DNA of 64,000 bases, from positions 124,001-188,000 of the forward strand of contig NZ_BOOQ01000013.1 in NCBI RefSeq assembly GCF_016863315.1, written 5' to 3'. Below, piece after piece: positions 9,074 through 51,333 of the stretch. Within the stretch, counting starts at the first letter, position 1; each line of letters starts with the position of its first letter. Source of the DNA: Planotetraspora silvatica (GTDB lineage Bacteria > Actinomycetota > Actinomycetes > Streptosporangiales > Streptosporangiaceae). The notes beneath the pieces are model-generated. The model saw only the letters and a list, made by a program, of their open reading frames with translations, did no database searches and was not told where the DNA came from. The translations under genes were made by a program, and so were the position numbers.

Positions 9074-10465
9074 ATGGAGTCGAATATGACGTGGGACGTG
9101 AAAGAGTTCGCCGAGGCCGCTGAGGTGACGGTGGACGAGCTGGCCGCCTATGTGGACCAGAGCCAGCGGGGCATGGCGCCGGTTCTGCGCCGCCGGCCTC
9201 CGCGTGAGCTGGCGGACAAGCTGGAGCTGGCCCGGTGGATCCGAGAGGGGGGCATGACGCCCGAGGACTACCGGCGGTTCCTCGGCGACTATCTCCGCGA
9301 GGGCACGCGGCTGCACCACCCCGCCTACCTCGGCCACCAGAGCGCCGTTCCCGACTTCCCCGCGGCGCTCGCCGACTTCGTCCACGGCGCGACCAACAAC
9401 CCGATGGCGATCTACGAGATGGGCGCCTCGGCCGCGACGGTCGAGTTCGAGGTGCTGCGCTGGATGCTCGCCAAGGTCGGTTTCCGCGACGGCGGCGGCG
9501 TGCTGACGCACGGGGGTTCCCTGGCCAACCTGACCGGGATGCTCGCCGCGCGGGCCGCCGTAGCGCCGGACGCCTGGGCCGACGGCGTCCCGGCGGACCT
9601 CGTCCTGCTGGCACCGCCGTCCGCGCACTACTCGATCACCCGGGCCGCCGCGATCCTCGGCCTGGGCGAGCGGGCCGTCGTTCCGCTGGAGGTCGACGGC
9701 CTCGGCCGGATCGACGTCACCCGCCTGCCCGCCGTACTGGAACAGGTGCGCCGGTCGGGGCGGCGGCCGATGGCCCTGGTCGCCGGAGCGTGCGCCACCG
9801 GCACCGGCCTTTACGACGATCTCCGGGCGATCGGGGAGTTCTGCGCGGAGAACGGCATCTGGTACCACGTTGACGGCGCGCACGGGGCCTCAGCCCTGCT
9901 CAGCGACGGCCACCGGCATCTGCTCGACGGCATCGAACTGGCCGACTCGGTCATCTGGGACGCCCACAAGATGTTGCGGACCTCGAGCCTCGCCGCCGCG
10001 GTGCTCGTGCGCCGGGAGCCCGACCTGGACGCGGCCTTCCAGCAGCAGGCGAGTTACCTCTTCTACGGCGACCAGGGATTCGACCTGGTCGGCAGGGCCG
10101 TCGAGTGCACCAAGGCCGAACTCGGGCTGAAGATCTTCCTCAACCTCGCATGGCGGGGCGAGCGGGGCATGGGCGAATACGTGGCGCGGCAGTACGAGAC
10201 GGCCCACAGGTTCTGGGAGCTGGCCAGGAACCGGCCCGGTTTCGTGTTCCCCTACGAGCCGGAGAGCAACATCGTCTGCTTCCGGTACGGCACGGCCGAC
10301 CAGGCGGCCATCCGCGAACGGCTGATGGCCGACGGCACGTTCCACCTGACCTCAGCCGAGATCGGCGGGGTCCGCCACCTCCGGGTGACCGTGATGGCCC
10401 CGGCGACCGACGACCAAACCCTGGAGTCCCTCCTCGACCACATCACCCCCCTCTTTTCCGCGTGA
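9074..10465 (+). CDS. PLP-dependent group II amino-acid decarboxylase
   Basis: 463 residues. The Schiff-base Lys is K299 in WDAHKML, and the PLP-pairing Asp is D267 in YHVDGAHGA; both are hallmarks of group II decarboxylases (glutamate, aromatic, 2,4-diaminobutyrate). HPAYLGHQ near residue 82 and NNPMAIYEMGASA near 108 shape the active site. The substrate cannot be assigned by eye. There is no ribosome site, and a -10-like CATTAT ends 6 bases before ATG 9074, so the transcript may be leaderless. Divergent from an Lrp regulator. Its stop codon TGA (10463-10465) lies inside the first core of the 53-bp repeat array. Confidence 0.88.
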   Translation: MESNMTWDVKEFAEAAEVTVDELAAYVDQSQRGMAPVLRRRPPRELADKLELARWIREGGMTPEDYRRFLGDYLREGTRLHHPAYLGHQSAVPDFPAALADFVHGATNNPMAIYEMGASAATVEFEVLRWMLAKVGFRDGGGVLTHGGSLANLTGMLAARAAVAPDAWADGVPADLVLLAPPSAHYSITRAAAILGLGERAVVPLEVDGLGRIDVTRLPAVLEQVRRSGRRPMALVAGACATGTGLYDDLRAIGEFCAENGIWYHVDGAHGASALLSDGHRHLLDGIELADSVIWDAHKMLRTSSLAAAVLVRREPDLDAAFQQQASYLFYGDQGFDLVGRAVECTKAELGLKIFLNLAWRGERGMGEYVARQYETAHRFWELARNRPGFVFPYEPESNIVCFRYGTADQAAIRERLMADGTFHLTSAEIGGVRHLRVTVMAPATDDQTLESLLDHITPLFSA

Positions 10466-10921
10466 TCATGCACAGGTTCGGCGGCATGCCGTACGAGCTG
10501 GCCAAACCCCGTCCGTGATCATGCACAGGTTCGCGTTCATGGCTCGAGAGCTGGGCGAATCCAGTTCGTGATCATGCACAGGTTCGGTCGCACGCCGCAC
10601 GACCTCGGGAAACTTTCACCGTGATCATGCGCAGGTTCGCGGACATGTCGCCCAACCTCGGGAAACCCCTCCCGTGATCATGCACTGGGCTCCGCCGTGC
10701 ATGATCACGGGAACGAAAGCAGCAGGCCACACGGCCGACTACAGAATCTGCGCATGATCACGAACTGGAAAGCGGCAGGTTGGCCATGCGATCAACGAAT
10801 CCGTGCATGATCACGGGCAACATTCGCGCTGGTCATTGGCCATTCCCAAGAACCCGTGCATGATCACGGACAAGGTGGCCGCTGGTCGGCGGCCACCTTT
10901 CCGAACCTGTGCATGATCACG
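10461..10921. repeat. Mirror-image array of ten 53-bp-spaced repeat cores
   Basis: The core CGTGATCATGCACAGGTTCG or a close variant starts at 10461, 10514, 10567, 10620 and 10673: exactly 53 bp apart, all on the plus strand. The same core then occurs five times on the minus strand, ending at 10709, 10762, 10815, 10868 and 10921, again exactly 53 bp apart. The 33-bp sequences between cores are related but much more diverged than the cores (in the direct half most carry GAGCTGG/GACCTCGG-like stretches). The array fills the gap between two convergent genes, and the first core contains the decarboxylase stop codon. No open frame of interest lies in the gap 10466-10948. I do not recognise this element. 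Confidence 0.95.
10671..10711. repeat. 15-bp perfect inverted repeat at the array axis
   Basis: CCCGTGATCATGCAC (10671-10685) and its exact complement (10697-10711) flank an 11-base loop. They are the innermost direct and inverted cores of the array. As RNA this would be a strong hairpin, and since both flanking genes converge here it could terminate either transcript. Confidence 0.9.
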
Positions 10922-10948
10922 GCGATGGGGGGCGGGCGGGGTGGGGGG

Positions 10949-12631
10949 TTAGAAACGGGCGGGTTCTGAGTAGGTGCCCCATTCGGCGCGGAGGGCGTCG
11001 CAGATCTCCCCCAGGGTCGCCTCGGCCCGGGCGGCGTCGAGCATGGGCGGGATCATGTTGTCGCTCGTCCTCGAAGCGGCCGTGAGCGCCGCCAGAGCCG
11101 CGTCGACGGCCGCCTGGTCCCGGGCGCCGCGGCGTTCCGCGAGAACGCGCCGCTGTTCGACCTCGACCTCATGGCTGATCCGGAGGATCTCCAGGGGCTC
11201 CTCGACCGACGCGGTGTGGCAGTTGACCCCGACGATCCGCTTGTCCCCCTTCTCCAGCTTCCGCTGGTAGTCGAAGGCCGCCTCGGCGATCTCCGACATG
11301 AACCAGCCGTCCTCGATGCCTCGGAGGATCCCGGACGTCATCGTCCCGTCAGACCCCATATCCCGAATTTTCGTGAAAATGGCTTCGGCCTCGGCCTCCA
11401 GCCTGTCGGTCAGCTCCTCGACGTACCAGGAGCCGCCCAGAGGATCGACGACGTTGACGACCTCGGTCTCCTCCATGATGACCTGCTGCGTCCGCAGGGC
11501 GATCTCCGCGGCCTTCTGGGACGGCAGCGCGAGCACCTCGTCCAGCGCGTTGGTGTGCAGGGAGTTGGTCCCGCCGAGCACCGCCGCCAGCGCCTCCACC
11601 GCCGTGCGGACGATGTTGTTGTCGGGCTGTTGCGCGGTCAGCGAGACGCCTGCGGTCTGGGTGTGGAAGCGCAGCCACTGGGCCTTCTCGGTCCGCGCGC
11701 CGTACACGTCTCGCATCCACCGGGCCCAGATCCGCCGGGCGGCCCTGAACTTGGCGATCTCCTCGAAGAAGTCGATGTGCGCGTCGAAGAAGAACGACAA
11801 TCCCGGAGCGAAGGCGTCGACGTCGAGCCCGCGCGACAGGCCGAGCTCGACGTAGCCGAACCCGTCCGCGAGGGTGAAAGCCAGCTCCTGCGCCGCCGTG
11901 GACCCGGCCTCCCGGATGTGGTAGCCGGAGACCGACAGCGGCTTGTACGCGGGGATCTCGGCGGCGCAGAACTCCATGAGGTCGCCGATCAGCCGCAGAT
12001 GGGGCTCGGGGGAGAACAGCCACTCCTTCTGCGCGATGTACTCCTTGAAGATGTCCGTCTGGAGGGTTCCGTTCAGCTTGCCCGTCGGCACGCCCTGCCT
12101 CTCGGCCGCGACGACGTACATGCAGAAGATCGGTACGGCCGGCCCGCTGATGGTCATCGAGGTGGTGACGTCACCGAGCGGGATGCCGTCGAACAGCTGG
12201 TCCATGTCCAGTGCCGAGTCGATGGCGACACCGCAGTGCCCCACCTCCCCGAGGGAGTGCGAGTCGTCGGAGTCGCGGCCCATCAGCGTCGGCATGTCGA
12301 ACGCGACGGACAGACCTCCTCCTCCGGCGCCGAGGATCATCTTGTAGCGCTCGTTGGTCTGCTGGGCGTTGCCGAACCCGGCGAACTGCCGGATCGTCCA
12401 TGGCCGCCCCCGGTAGCCGGTCGGATGGAGGCCCCGGGTGAACGGGAACTCGCCGGGCCAGCCGATGCGCGCGAATCGCGGATCGCTGGAGGTGGGCCCG
12501 TAAACGGGGTCGACCTCCAGGCCGGAAAGGGTCCGGAACTCCCCTGCCCGCTTGAAGGCGGCGTCGTACCGTGCCTGCCAGCGGGCCCGGCCGGCCTCGG
12601 TGTCGGCGTCGCGCGCGTGCTTCGGGTCCAT
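10949..12631 (-). CDS. icmA: Isobutyryl-CoA mutase large subunit (adenosylcobalamin-dependent)
   Basis: 560 residues from ATG 12631 (GGAGG four bases upstream). The sequence is the substrate-binding TIM-barrel of acyl-CoA mutases without the C-terminal B12-binding domain, as in IcmA, whose partner IcmB supplies that domain. Two residues separate isobutyryl- from methylmalonyl-CoA mutases: Phe83 in RQFAGFGNA (Tyr in methylmalonyl mutase) and Gln201 in YIAQKEW (Arg in methylmalonyl mutase). Both are the isobutyryl type. It interconverts isobutyryl-CoA and n-butyryl-CoA, linking valine catabolism to butyrate units. No icmB lies in this window. MeaB, epimerase and adenosyltransferase genes are nearby. 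A palindromic operator overlaps its promoter. Confidence 0.88.
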   Translation of the reverse strand: MDPKHARDADTEAGRARWQARYDAAFKRAGEFRTLSGLEVDPVYGPTSSDPRFARIGWPGEFPFTRGLHPTGYRGRPWTIRQFAGFGNAQQTNERYKMILGAGGGGLSVAFDMPTLMGRDSDDSHSLGEVGHCGVAIDSALDMDQLFDGIPLGDVTTSMTISGPAVPIFCMYVVAAERQGVPTGKLNGTLQTDIFKEYIAQKEWLFSPEPHLRLIGDLMEFCAAEIPAYKPLSVSGYHIREAGSTAAQELAFTLADGFGYVELGLSRGLDVDAFAPGLSFFFDAHIDFFEEIAKFRAARRIWARWMRDVYGARTEKAQWLRFHTQTAGVSLTAQQPDNNIVRTAVEALAAVLGGTNSLHTNALDEVLALPSQKAAEIALRTQQVIMEETEVVNVVDPLGGSWYVEELTDRLEAEAEAIFTKIRDMGSDGTMTSGILRGIEDGWFMSEIAEAAFDYQRKLEKGDKRIVGVNCHTASVEEPLEILRISHEVEVEQRRVLAERRGARDQAAVDAALAALTAASRTSDNMIPPMLDAARAEATLGEICDALRAEWGTYSEPARF

Positions 12632-12662
12632 ACGGCCTCCAAAGTGTCGGATCCCAAAGAAA

Positions 12663-12691
12663 ATACTAGGACGTCCTAGTACCCTTTCCAA
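12663..12691 (-). promoter_or_regulatory. icmA promoter with 18-bp palindromic operator
   Basis: On the minus strand TTGGAA (12691-12686) and TAGTAT (12668-12663) are separated by exactly 17 bases, a good sigma-70-type promoter. The perfect palindrome TACTAGGACGTCCTAGTA (12664-12681) covers the spacer and most of the -10, a classic repressor position 32 bases before the start codon. The regulator is not identifiable from the sequence. Confidence 0.75.
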
Positions 12692-12779
12692 CGCCGCGTC
12701 GCCCCTTACGGAAGGTGACCTGACGGTTCCCCTTCGCATGCCGTCATGTCACACGTTGGTCGCAAATTGCCACGGATCT

Positions 12780-24216: not shown

Positions 24217-24448
24217 CGTGATCATGCACAAGTTCTCCCACAGTATCCCTGACCACCCAATTCTCCCGCCGTGATCATGCACAGGCTCGCCGCCATCCCC
24301 CGTGACCAGCCCACACCCCCCGCGTGATCATGCACTGGTTCGCCGCCACCCCGCGCGACCAGGCCGTACACCATCCGTGATCATGCACACGTTCGGGCAC
24401 AACCCCGCCGGCCAGCGCATACTCCGTACGTGATCATGCAAATGCGGC
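24217..24448. repeat. Five-core 53-bp-spaced array, locus 2
   Basis: Cores start at 24217, 24270, 24323, 24376 and 24429: every interval is exactly 53 bp and all are on the plus strand. All five share CGTGATCATGCA, while the second part of the core varies (the fifth is most decayed). Spacers share a GACCA/CCAGC-like stretch. The array begins 20 bases upstream of the hydrolase start (24196) and ends 4 bases after the stop codon of the gene at 24453, occupying the whole gap. Confidence 0.95.
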
Positions 24449-51205: not shown

Positions 51206-51333
51206 AGCCGATGTGCATGATCACGAGCAGTATCTTGGCTGGCCGGACTGACATTTCACGAACCCGCGCATGATCACGACGAGGATTCCCCGCGGCGCCG
51301 GCGGGCCGATGCGAGGACCTGTGCGTGACCACG
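51206..51333. repeat. Three-core 53-bp-type array between thrC and thrB
   Basis: Cores on the minus strand end at 51225, 51278 (53 bp apart) and 51333 (55 bp; this last copy is the most decayed, with a T-to-C change in TGATCA). The array lies wholly inside the thrC-thrB gap, starting 10 bases before the thrB ATG. If thrC and thrB share one mRNA, the repeats are transcribed. Confidence 0.85.

Follow-up and report, generated by a model that had tools for sequence, protein, structure and literature searches.

Mirrored intergenic repeat arrays with a 53-bp step in Planotetraspora: candidate binding-site arrays acting at the DNA level

The window analyzed here is a stretch of 64,000 nucleotides from the genome of Planotetraspora silvatica. 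Between two converging genes, encoding proteins of the Pyridoxal_deC and MM_CoA_mutase families, it contains an array (10461-10921) of ten copies of CGTGATCATGC, five on each strand, in which 11 bases are identical in all ten copies. The plus-strand copies lie at 10461, 10514, 10567, 10620 and 10673, and the minus-strand copies at 10699, 10752, 10805, 10858 and 10911. The step is 53 bp for each neighbouring pair in either half, and there is one mirror centre. The initial annotation had described five direct and five inverted cores in a convergent gap, a 53-bp interval throughout each half and ten copies with the same first 11 bases; all three features are confirmed, and the families of the two flanking genes were checked separately. 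When up to one mismatch was allowed, 23 matches were found in the window, compared with a mean of 1.59 and a maximum of 5 in 100 dinucleotide-preserving shuffles. The linkers carry a looser second block (consensus approximately YGACCTGCGC, unit positions 33-42) and hence are not random spacers. The features of the locus and two further arrays of the window are listed in Table 1.

Table 1. Positions of the array parts, the flanking genes and the other arrays of the window.
Feature	Position	Strand	Remark
Left flanking gene, Pyridoxal_deC family	9074..10465	+	converges on the array
Left arm, core 1, CGTGATCATGCACAGGTTCG	10461..10480	+	contains the left gene's stop TGA at 10463-10465 (CG-TGA-TC)
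Second-block variant (unit positions 33-42), unit 1	10494..10503	+	more variants at 10547, 10600 and 10653
Left arm, core 2	10514..10533	+	
Left arm, core 3	10567..10586	+	
Left arm, core 4, CGTGATCATGCGCAGGTTCG	10620..10639	+	
Central palindrome at the junction of the arms	10670..10712	.	16-bp arms with 11 bases between; formed by the innermost cores
Left arm, innermost core, without TTCG tail	10673..10685	+	
Right arm, innermost core, without TTCG tail	10697..10709	-	
Right arm, core 4 (numbered from the outer end)	10743..10762	-	
Right arm, core 3	10796..10815	-	
Right arm, core 2	10849..10868	-	
Right arm, outermost core	10902..10921	-	
Right flanking gene, MM_CoA_mutase family	10949..12739	-	converges on the array
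Second array of the window	24217..24439	+	five cores in 53-bp steps, one arm only; antisense to both neighbours
Third array of the window	51215..51278	-	two cores 53 bp apart, in the gap between a GHMP-kinase gene and a PALP-family gene

The core was counted across the genome (8.66 Mb, 117 contigs), where 762 exact copies of CGTGATCATGCRC are present, 389 on the plus and 373 on the minus strand; the array is not unique to this locus, and similar arrays, with dialects, make up a family that extends over several genera. The genome has 628 exactly phased pairs, and 395 other genomes of the phylum have none. Across the five Planotetraspora genomes (G000, the genome under study, to G004, with P. 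mira as G002) the copies range from 157 to 762 per genome, and the long core also occurs, among the matches listed, in records of P. mira, P. kaengkrachanensis and P. phitsanulokensis. An own-genome sample of 837 kb (773 kb of further stretches plus the window) has 28 arrays of at least two cores, about one per 30 kb. The G000 stretches are contiguous, and their array density may exceed that of the genome. The reversed-pattern control was not relied on, because it contains CTAG, which is a rare word in such genomes; other genomes in the same searches served as controls instead.

The 53-bp unit has the consensus CGTGATCATGCACAggTTCG, followed by about 13 loose bases and then ctGACCtGCgc. The spacing of the cores is not random: of the same-strand intervals below 250 bp, 126 of 134 measure 52 or 53 bp in the 837 kb of G000, with corresponding values of 61/66 in P. 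mira, 58/66 in G001, 54/58 in G004 and 68/84 in G062, a genome of another genus. Where arms meet, they almost always face inward, with 13 '+-' junctions against one '-+' in G000 and 54 against five across the five sampled genomes. The step had been proposed to represent five turns of B-DNA, so that all cores lie on one face of the helix. The value of 53 bp fits this proposal, but intervals near 42 and 63 bp, the other helical multiples, are almost absent in the sampled genomes, and the constraint thus appears to be on 53 bp itself. Helical phasing of the mirror-centre distances was also considered and was rejected, as these distances, judged by eye, are inconsistent between genomes.

The position of the arrays relative to genes was determined with gene calls from a simple codon-usage script. 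Arrays occupy 12 of 99 convergent, 15 of 348 tandem and one of 107 divergent gaps, and none of 105 overlapping gene pairs (convergent vs divergent, p = 0.0009; convergent vs tandem, p = 0.007; tandem vs divergent, p = 0.13). The sole array of the 28 between diverging genes (G000:C2:401195-401666) lies between those for a PGPGW protein and a class-III aminotransferase. A mirrored array is found at G000:C2:87439-87802 between same-strand genes for a solute-binding protein and a permease, probably one operon. Five tandem gaps have mirrored arrays; the single-arm arrays in tandem gaps comprise five in sense and five in antisense orientation. The 28 arrays have 56 flanking proteins, of which 30, chiefly from tandem and divergent gaps, were submitted to Pfam to check the gene strands; 29 were assigned a family at E <= 0.001 (one of them under the curated cut-off), and the remaining one has no family. 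With the gene strands supported in this way, the equal numbers of sense and antisense arms indicate that the element seems to act as DNA and not as part of a sense transcript.

The arrays reach up to stop codons, and nine of these are located within outermost cores; the centre of the 10461-10921 array could form a strong hairpin. Both observations would suit transcription terminators or RNA elements that stop or trim transcripts at gene ends. We consider this explanation improbable, since half of the single-arm arrays in tandem gaps are antisense to both genes and the units gave little sign of RNA structure. Folding of 40 units gave mean z values of -0.44 and -0.49 on the two strands, little better than shuffles on either, with single units reaching -4.8 and -6.1, and neither RNA covariation nor pairing association was found within the 53-bp units. 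A hairpin between the 3' half of the core (CAGGT) and the second block (ACCTG) was rejected: the two show no association within units, and the core/second-block pair 12-39, present in 117 of 122 units in G000, is retained in only two of 46 in G004 without compensation. An Rfam search of 9800-11600 up to E = 1 returned a single match, which scored 19.1 bits where the gathering score is 100. A transcription-oriented element with a conserved RNA structure was thus not found.

Array loci were compared between species by way of their flanks. The array was present at 13 of 13 loci with both flanks located in the contiguous P. mira stretch and at 14 of 14 in G001, the latter being a biased sample because the G001 stretches, like those of G004 and of genera g50 and g65, were picked for holding cores; comparable flanks were lacking for 15 of the 28 arrays in the P. 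mira stretch and for 14 of the 28 in G001. At the 3' end of the MM_CoA_mutase gene an array occurs in five of five Planotetraspora genomes (reduced in G003) and also in G062, where the right-hand neighbour differs, and none was seen in G053, G092, G054 or G186. Between the zincin-like peptidase gene and tilS, an array was found in each of the five Planotetraspora genomes and in the two g65 genomes tested; G062 has only a degenerate core-like word there, and no array was seen in G037, G086, G054, G092, G358, G764 or G805. Arms gain and lose units between species. The orientation of the arms differs at one shared locus, -+++ at G000:C2:346755-346933 and ---- at its counterpart in G001. The arrays of G003 look reduced: the genome has 231 cores, and a short remnant is left at the MM_CoA_mutase locus. 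Immediately next to the 53-bp array at the 3' end of this gene, G062 (L171) and G004 (L170) have short repeats, about 20-23 bp long, with a degenerate core (GTGATCACGCAA; GCATCACGCCCAAGG). A comparison of the first G000 stretches with the G062 stretch as orthologues was unusable, with 12 reciprocal best hits, mostly below 50% identity.

Substitutions between species were counted separately for the parts of the unit and for the flanks, which are mostly coding. Compared with P. mira, substitutions affect 41 of 1023 sites (4.0%) in the core (positions 0-11), 257 of 1659 (15.5%) of the other linker sites and 273 of 6024 (4.5%) in the flanks, with 75/666 for the tag (positions 12-19) and 60/724 for the second block. 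Compared with G001, the values are 48/990 (4.8%) for the core, 524/1595 (32.9%) for other linker sites, 769/6633 (11.6%) for the flanks, 123/628 for the tag and 147/682 for the second block. The core rate is therefore about that of the flanks in the first comparison, which is the closer one, and under half of it in the second, wider one. Global alignment of arrays can misplace units and inflate linker divergence; within intervals of unchanged spacing the linker rate is 12.4% (P. mira) and 39% (G001). Spacing is altered in three of 47 orthologous intervals against P. mira (52/53, 35/53 and 18/53) and in one of 16 against G001 (53/31), counted as net length change per interval only, where about 29 changes were expected in each case from the indel/substitution ratio of array-free intergenic regions (0.150 from 125 regions for P. 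mira; 0.140 from 65 for G001). Arms with unequal core counts or fewer than two cores, 12 for P. mira and 23 for G001, were skipped in this comparison.

The initial annotation had taken the greater divergence of linkers than of cores as a sign of selection on core and spacing, and the interspecies comparison upholds it. Because changes in the core are far below those in the linkers and changes in spacing far below expectation, the core word and the 53-bp spacing both look selected at the level of sequence, as sites and spacing in an array of binding sites would be. Exact 53-bp steps can be produced by tandem duplication alone, and gain and loss of units between species is also in line with functionless tandem duplications whose even spacing is a relic of recent copying. 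This explanation appears highly improbable: the period is kept over diverged linkers, the same plan is found in several genera, and the core changes at less than half the flank rate against G001, though at about the same rate against P. mira.

The tag that follows the core varies between lineages. In G004 it has switched genome-wide from the CAGGTTCG-type to GAAGTTCG, and GTGATCATGCAGAAGTTC has 583 copies in this genome and one each in G000-G003; among five genomes of other genera it has three copies in G092 and none in G062, G053, G054 or G186. The second-block consensus is unchanged in G004. Comparison of G004 with its congeners at four loci found the array in each of the two dialects. Of 27 G004 linkers, three match the orthologous array more closely than any of 300 random draws, and most others are indistinguishable from the draws. 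Because of this mixture, both turnover of units and substitution in place may have contributed to the switch; a base-by-base change in place as the sole route appears doubtful.

Other genera have their own versions of the pattern. The tags of G062 are of the CAGRTTCCC type, and many cores of genus g65 are CGTGATCTTGCA. In g65 a 14-bp core-to-core mirror centre, e.g. CGTGATCATGCAATTGCATGATCACG, was present in six of the 18 loci taken (L268-L271, L274 and L278); these centres are palindromic, or nearly so, about AATT or a comparable word. A looser phased pattern reaches at least four pairs in 13 of 297 family genomes (five of g1, which is Planotetraspora, one of g59, two of g34 and five of g65), and the others have 0-2. 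In genus g50 (20 loci, selected for cores) most tags are GTTGTTCG-like. Many of the cores form inverted pairs, often at 56-60 bp from each other, and 28-29 bp separate one pair from the next. Among 246 genomes of the class, the 12-mer CGTGATCATGCA is present 751 times in the genome under study, 288 times in G358, 287 in G764, 35 in G714, 29 in G805, 22 in G749 and 20 in G120, which is of the same family; the remaining genomes have 0-6 copies. In four genomes of other families this 12-mer is followed by ATCCCGCCACCC (G358), a variable ATCnTGGG (G764), CGTTCGCCCC (G805) and a GTTGATGT-like tag (G749), and the step there is less regular, mostly about 30-57 bp. G728, a congener of G764, has no core. 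Since the genomes of other families have their own tags and looser steps, the strict 53-bp plan is, as far as seen, limited to some genera of the organism's own family, and the 12-bp word is patchy over the class.

An over-represented core word with species dialects, which differ between related species and in one congener were exchanged throughout the genome, and inverted intergenic pairs are features shared with the uptake sequences (DUS) of Neisseriaceae. For the latter, the available part of PMC3630211 describes dialects and inverted pairs associated with terminators. By analogy, the arrays might provide a self-recognition word for DNA exchange, with the local dialect preferred in incoming DNA. 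In agreement with this idea, two paired-core patterns were not found in a viral contig collection and a blastn search with the 10461-10921 array gave no match in plasmid and phage records; a phage, plasmid or viral origin of the element was rejected on the same results. We nevertheless regard such a role as very unlikely, as uptake words need no 53-bp phased and mirrored layout, whereas the Planotetraspora arrays are strictly phased, and the arrays are few (28 in 837 kb). Copies of the core in Planotetraspora are also far fewer than those of DUS in Neisseriaceae.

A likeness also exists to REP, BIME and REPIN elements, whose defining features were taken from the available text of PMC2817692. 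Like these, the core is present in hundreds of short intergenic copies with a bias to convergent and tandem gaps, and it has a conserved head with a variable remainder, here a lineage tag, and sometimes inverted pairs. According to the accessible part of PMC3733652, REPs lie predominantly between convergent and unidirectional ORFs. The arrays might then be REP- or REPIN-like repeats spread by a transposase-like enzyme, selfish or hitchhiking and settled where harm is least. The inverted pairs of g50 resemble REP, the same 12-bp core is patchy over several actinomycete families, and the arm that is flipped at one locus between G000 and G001 would also fit. Several observations make this explanation doubtful. 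The REP-associated RAYT family (Y1_Tnp, PF01797, E <= 0.001) is unmatched in nine of ten searched core-bearing genomes, namely the genome under study, G001-G003, G062, G053, G092, G054 and G186, and has four matches in G004. The loci are stable, as seen with P. mira, at the zincin-like peptidase/tilS gap across the genus and two g65 genomes, and at the MM_CoA_mutase gene across the genus and G062; the core is far better kept than its own linkers. In contrast to REP-type elements, the Planotetraspora units are co-oriented at 53 bp and mirrored once, are not clearly palindromic and occupy loci conserved between species. Palindromes were noted at the mirror centre and in genus g50, and the orientation does not alternate regularly as in BIMEs (13 '+-' and one '-+' junctions vs 134 same-strand intervals in G000). 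Thus, in spite of the REP-like location, membership in the REP/BIME class was rejected for want of a palindromic unit, of alternation and of a cognate RAYT gene in the genome.

Three other known arrangements were compared. The MIRU of mycobacteria are intergenic tandem units of similar size, with unit ends that overlap stop codons; in Planotetraspora-type arrays, by contrast, a 12-bp core is kept across genera, the arms are mirrored and the linkers diverge freely. CRISPR arrays likewise alternate a short conserved repeat with more variable segments of fixed length. Here the linkers share a consensus block (positions 33-42) and are therefore not unrelated acquired spacers, the loci are many and dispersed, and the arms are mirrored. 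In iterons and other phased operator arrays, too, a protein site is directly repeated at a helical interval, whereas the present arrays are dispersed over the chromosome at gene ends and are not located at one origin or promoter. No description of the element was found in the literature searched, and none of the titles listed for the core letters in four forms dealt with a bacterial repeat. Judged from sequence, it is probably a variant within the broad class of dispersed intergenic repeats, with a role that is probably organisational.

The reading that best accounts for these results, with a probability of about one half, is that the arrays are cis-acting sites for a putative lineage-tuned binding protein with a role in organisation or insulation; the suggestion of a DNA-organising or binding array, with which the analysis began, thus remains the leading one. 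A reader protein is proposed because of the conserved word, the conserved step, the lack of transcriptional polarity and the dialects, and a genome-wide change of tag as in G004 is expected if site and reader co-evolve. In every 53-bp unit, such a protein would contact the core, CGTGATCATGCA with the tag nnnnTTCG, and probably also the second block, and it would assemble in a fixed geometry with about five helical turns between sites. The arms, mirrored onto the palindrome, could then give rise to a two-fold symmetric nucleoprotein complex. The sites lie at gene ends, per gap most often convergent ones, where promoters would stay undisturbed. The likely job of the complex would be chromosome organisation or the insulation of neighbouring units, for example as a roadblock, a loop anchor or in the handling of supercoils. 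We infer protein binding, oligomerisation and this job as parts of the model.

Some results count against a binding-site array. Of the evidence on spacing, only the retention of the 53-bp step across diverged linkers argues for selection, given what duplication alone can yield. The core is no better kept than the flanks against P. mira (4.0% vs 4.5%), and the arms turn over, as is evident from the few G004 linkers that match their orthologue. A simple insulator fits poorly, because one array lies in a divergent gap and one inside a probable operon. The system is not indispensable at full strength, since the congener G003 has as few as 231 cores.

A wider proposal is put forward tentatively. 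The near-invariant CGTGATC[A/T]TGCA with its lineage tag may belong to a chromosome-wide recognition system of actinomycetes with a dedicated reader, a protein or protein family that co-evolves with the tag. In Planotetraspora and related genera, inward-facing 53-bp arrays at gene ends would nucleate an ordered, symmetric nucleoprotein structure that punctuates the chromosome, and one species has rewritten the dialect at hundreds of sites. If the binding-site reading is correct, a large bacterial group would possess a sequence-specific organising or insulating element of a kind for which the literature searched has no description. The build-up of short repeats at converging genes would gain a clean model. 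The dialects of one word in sister species would then constitute a natural experiment, and it could be tested directly how a DNA-binding protein and its hundreds of sites evolve together.
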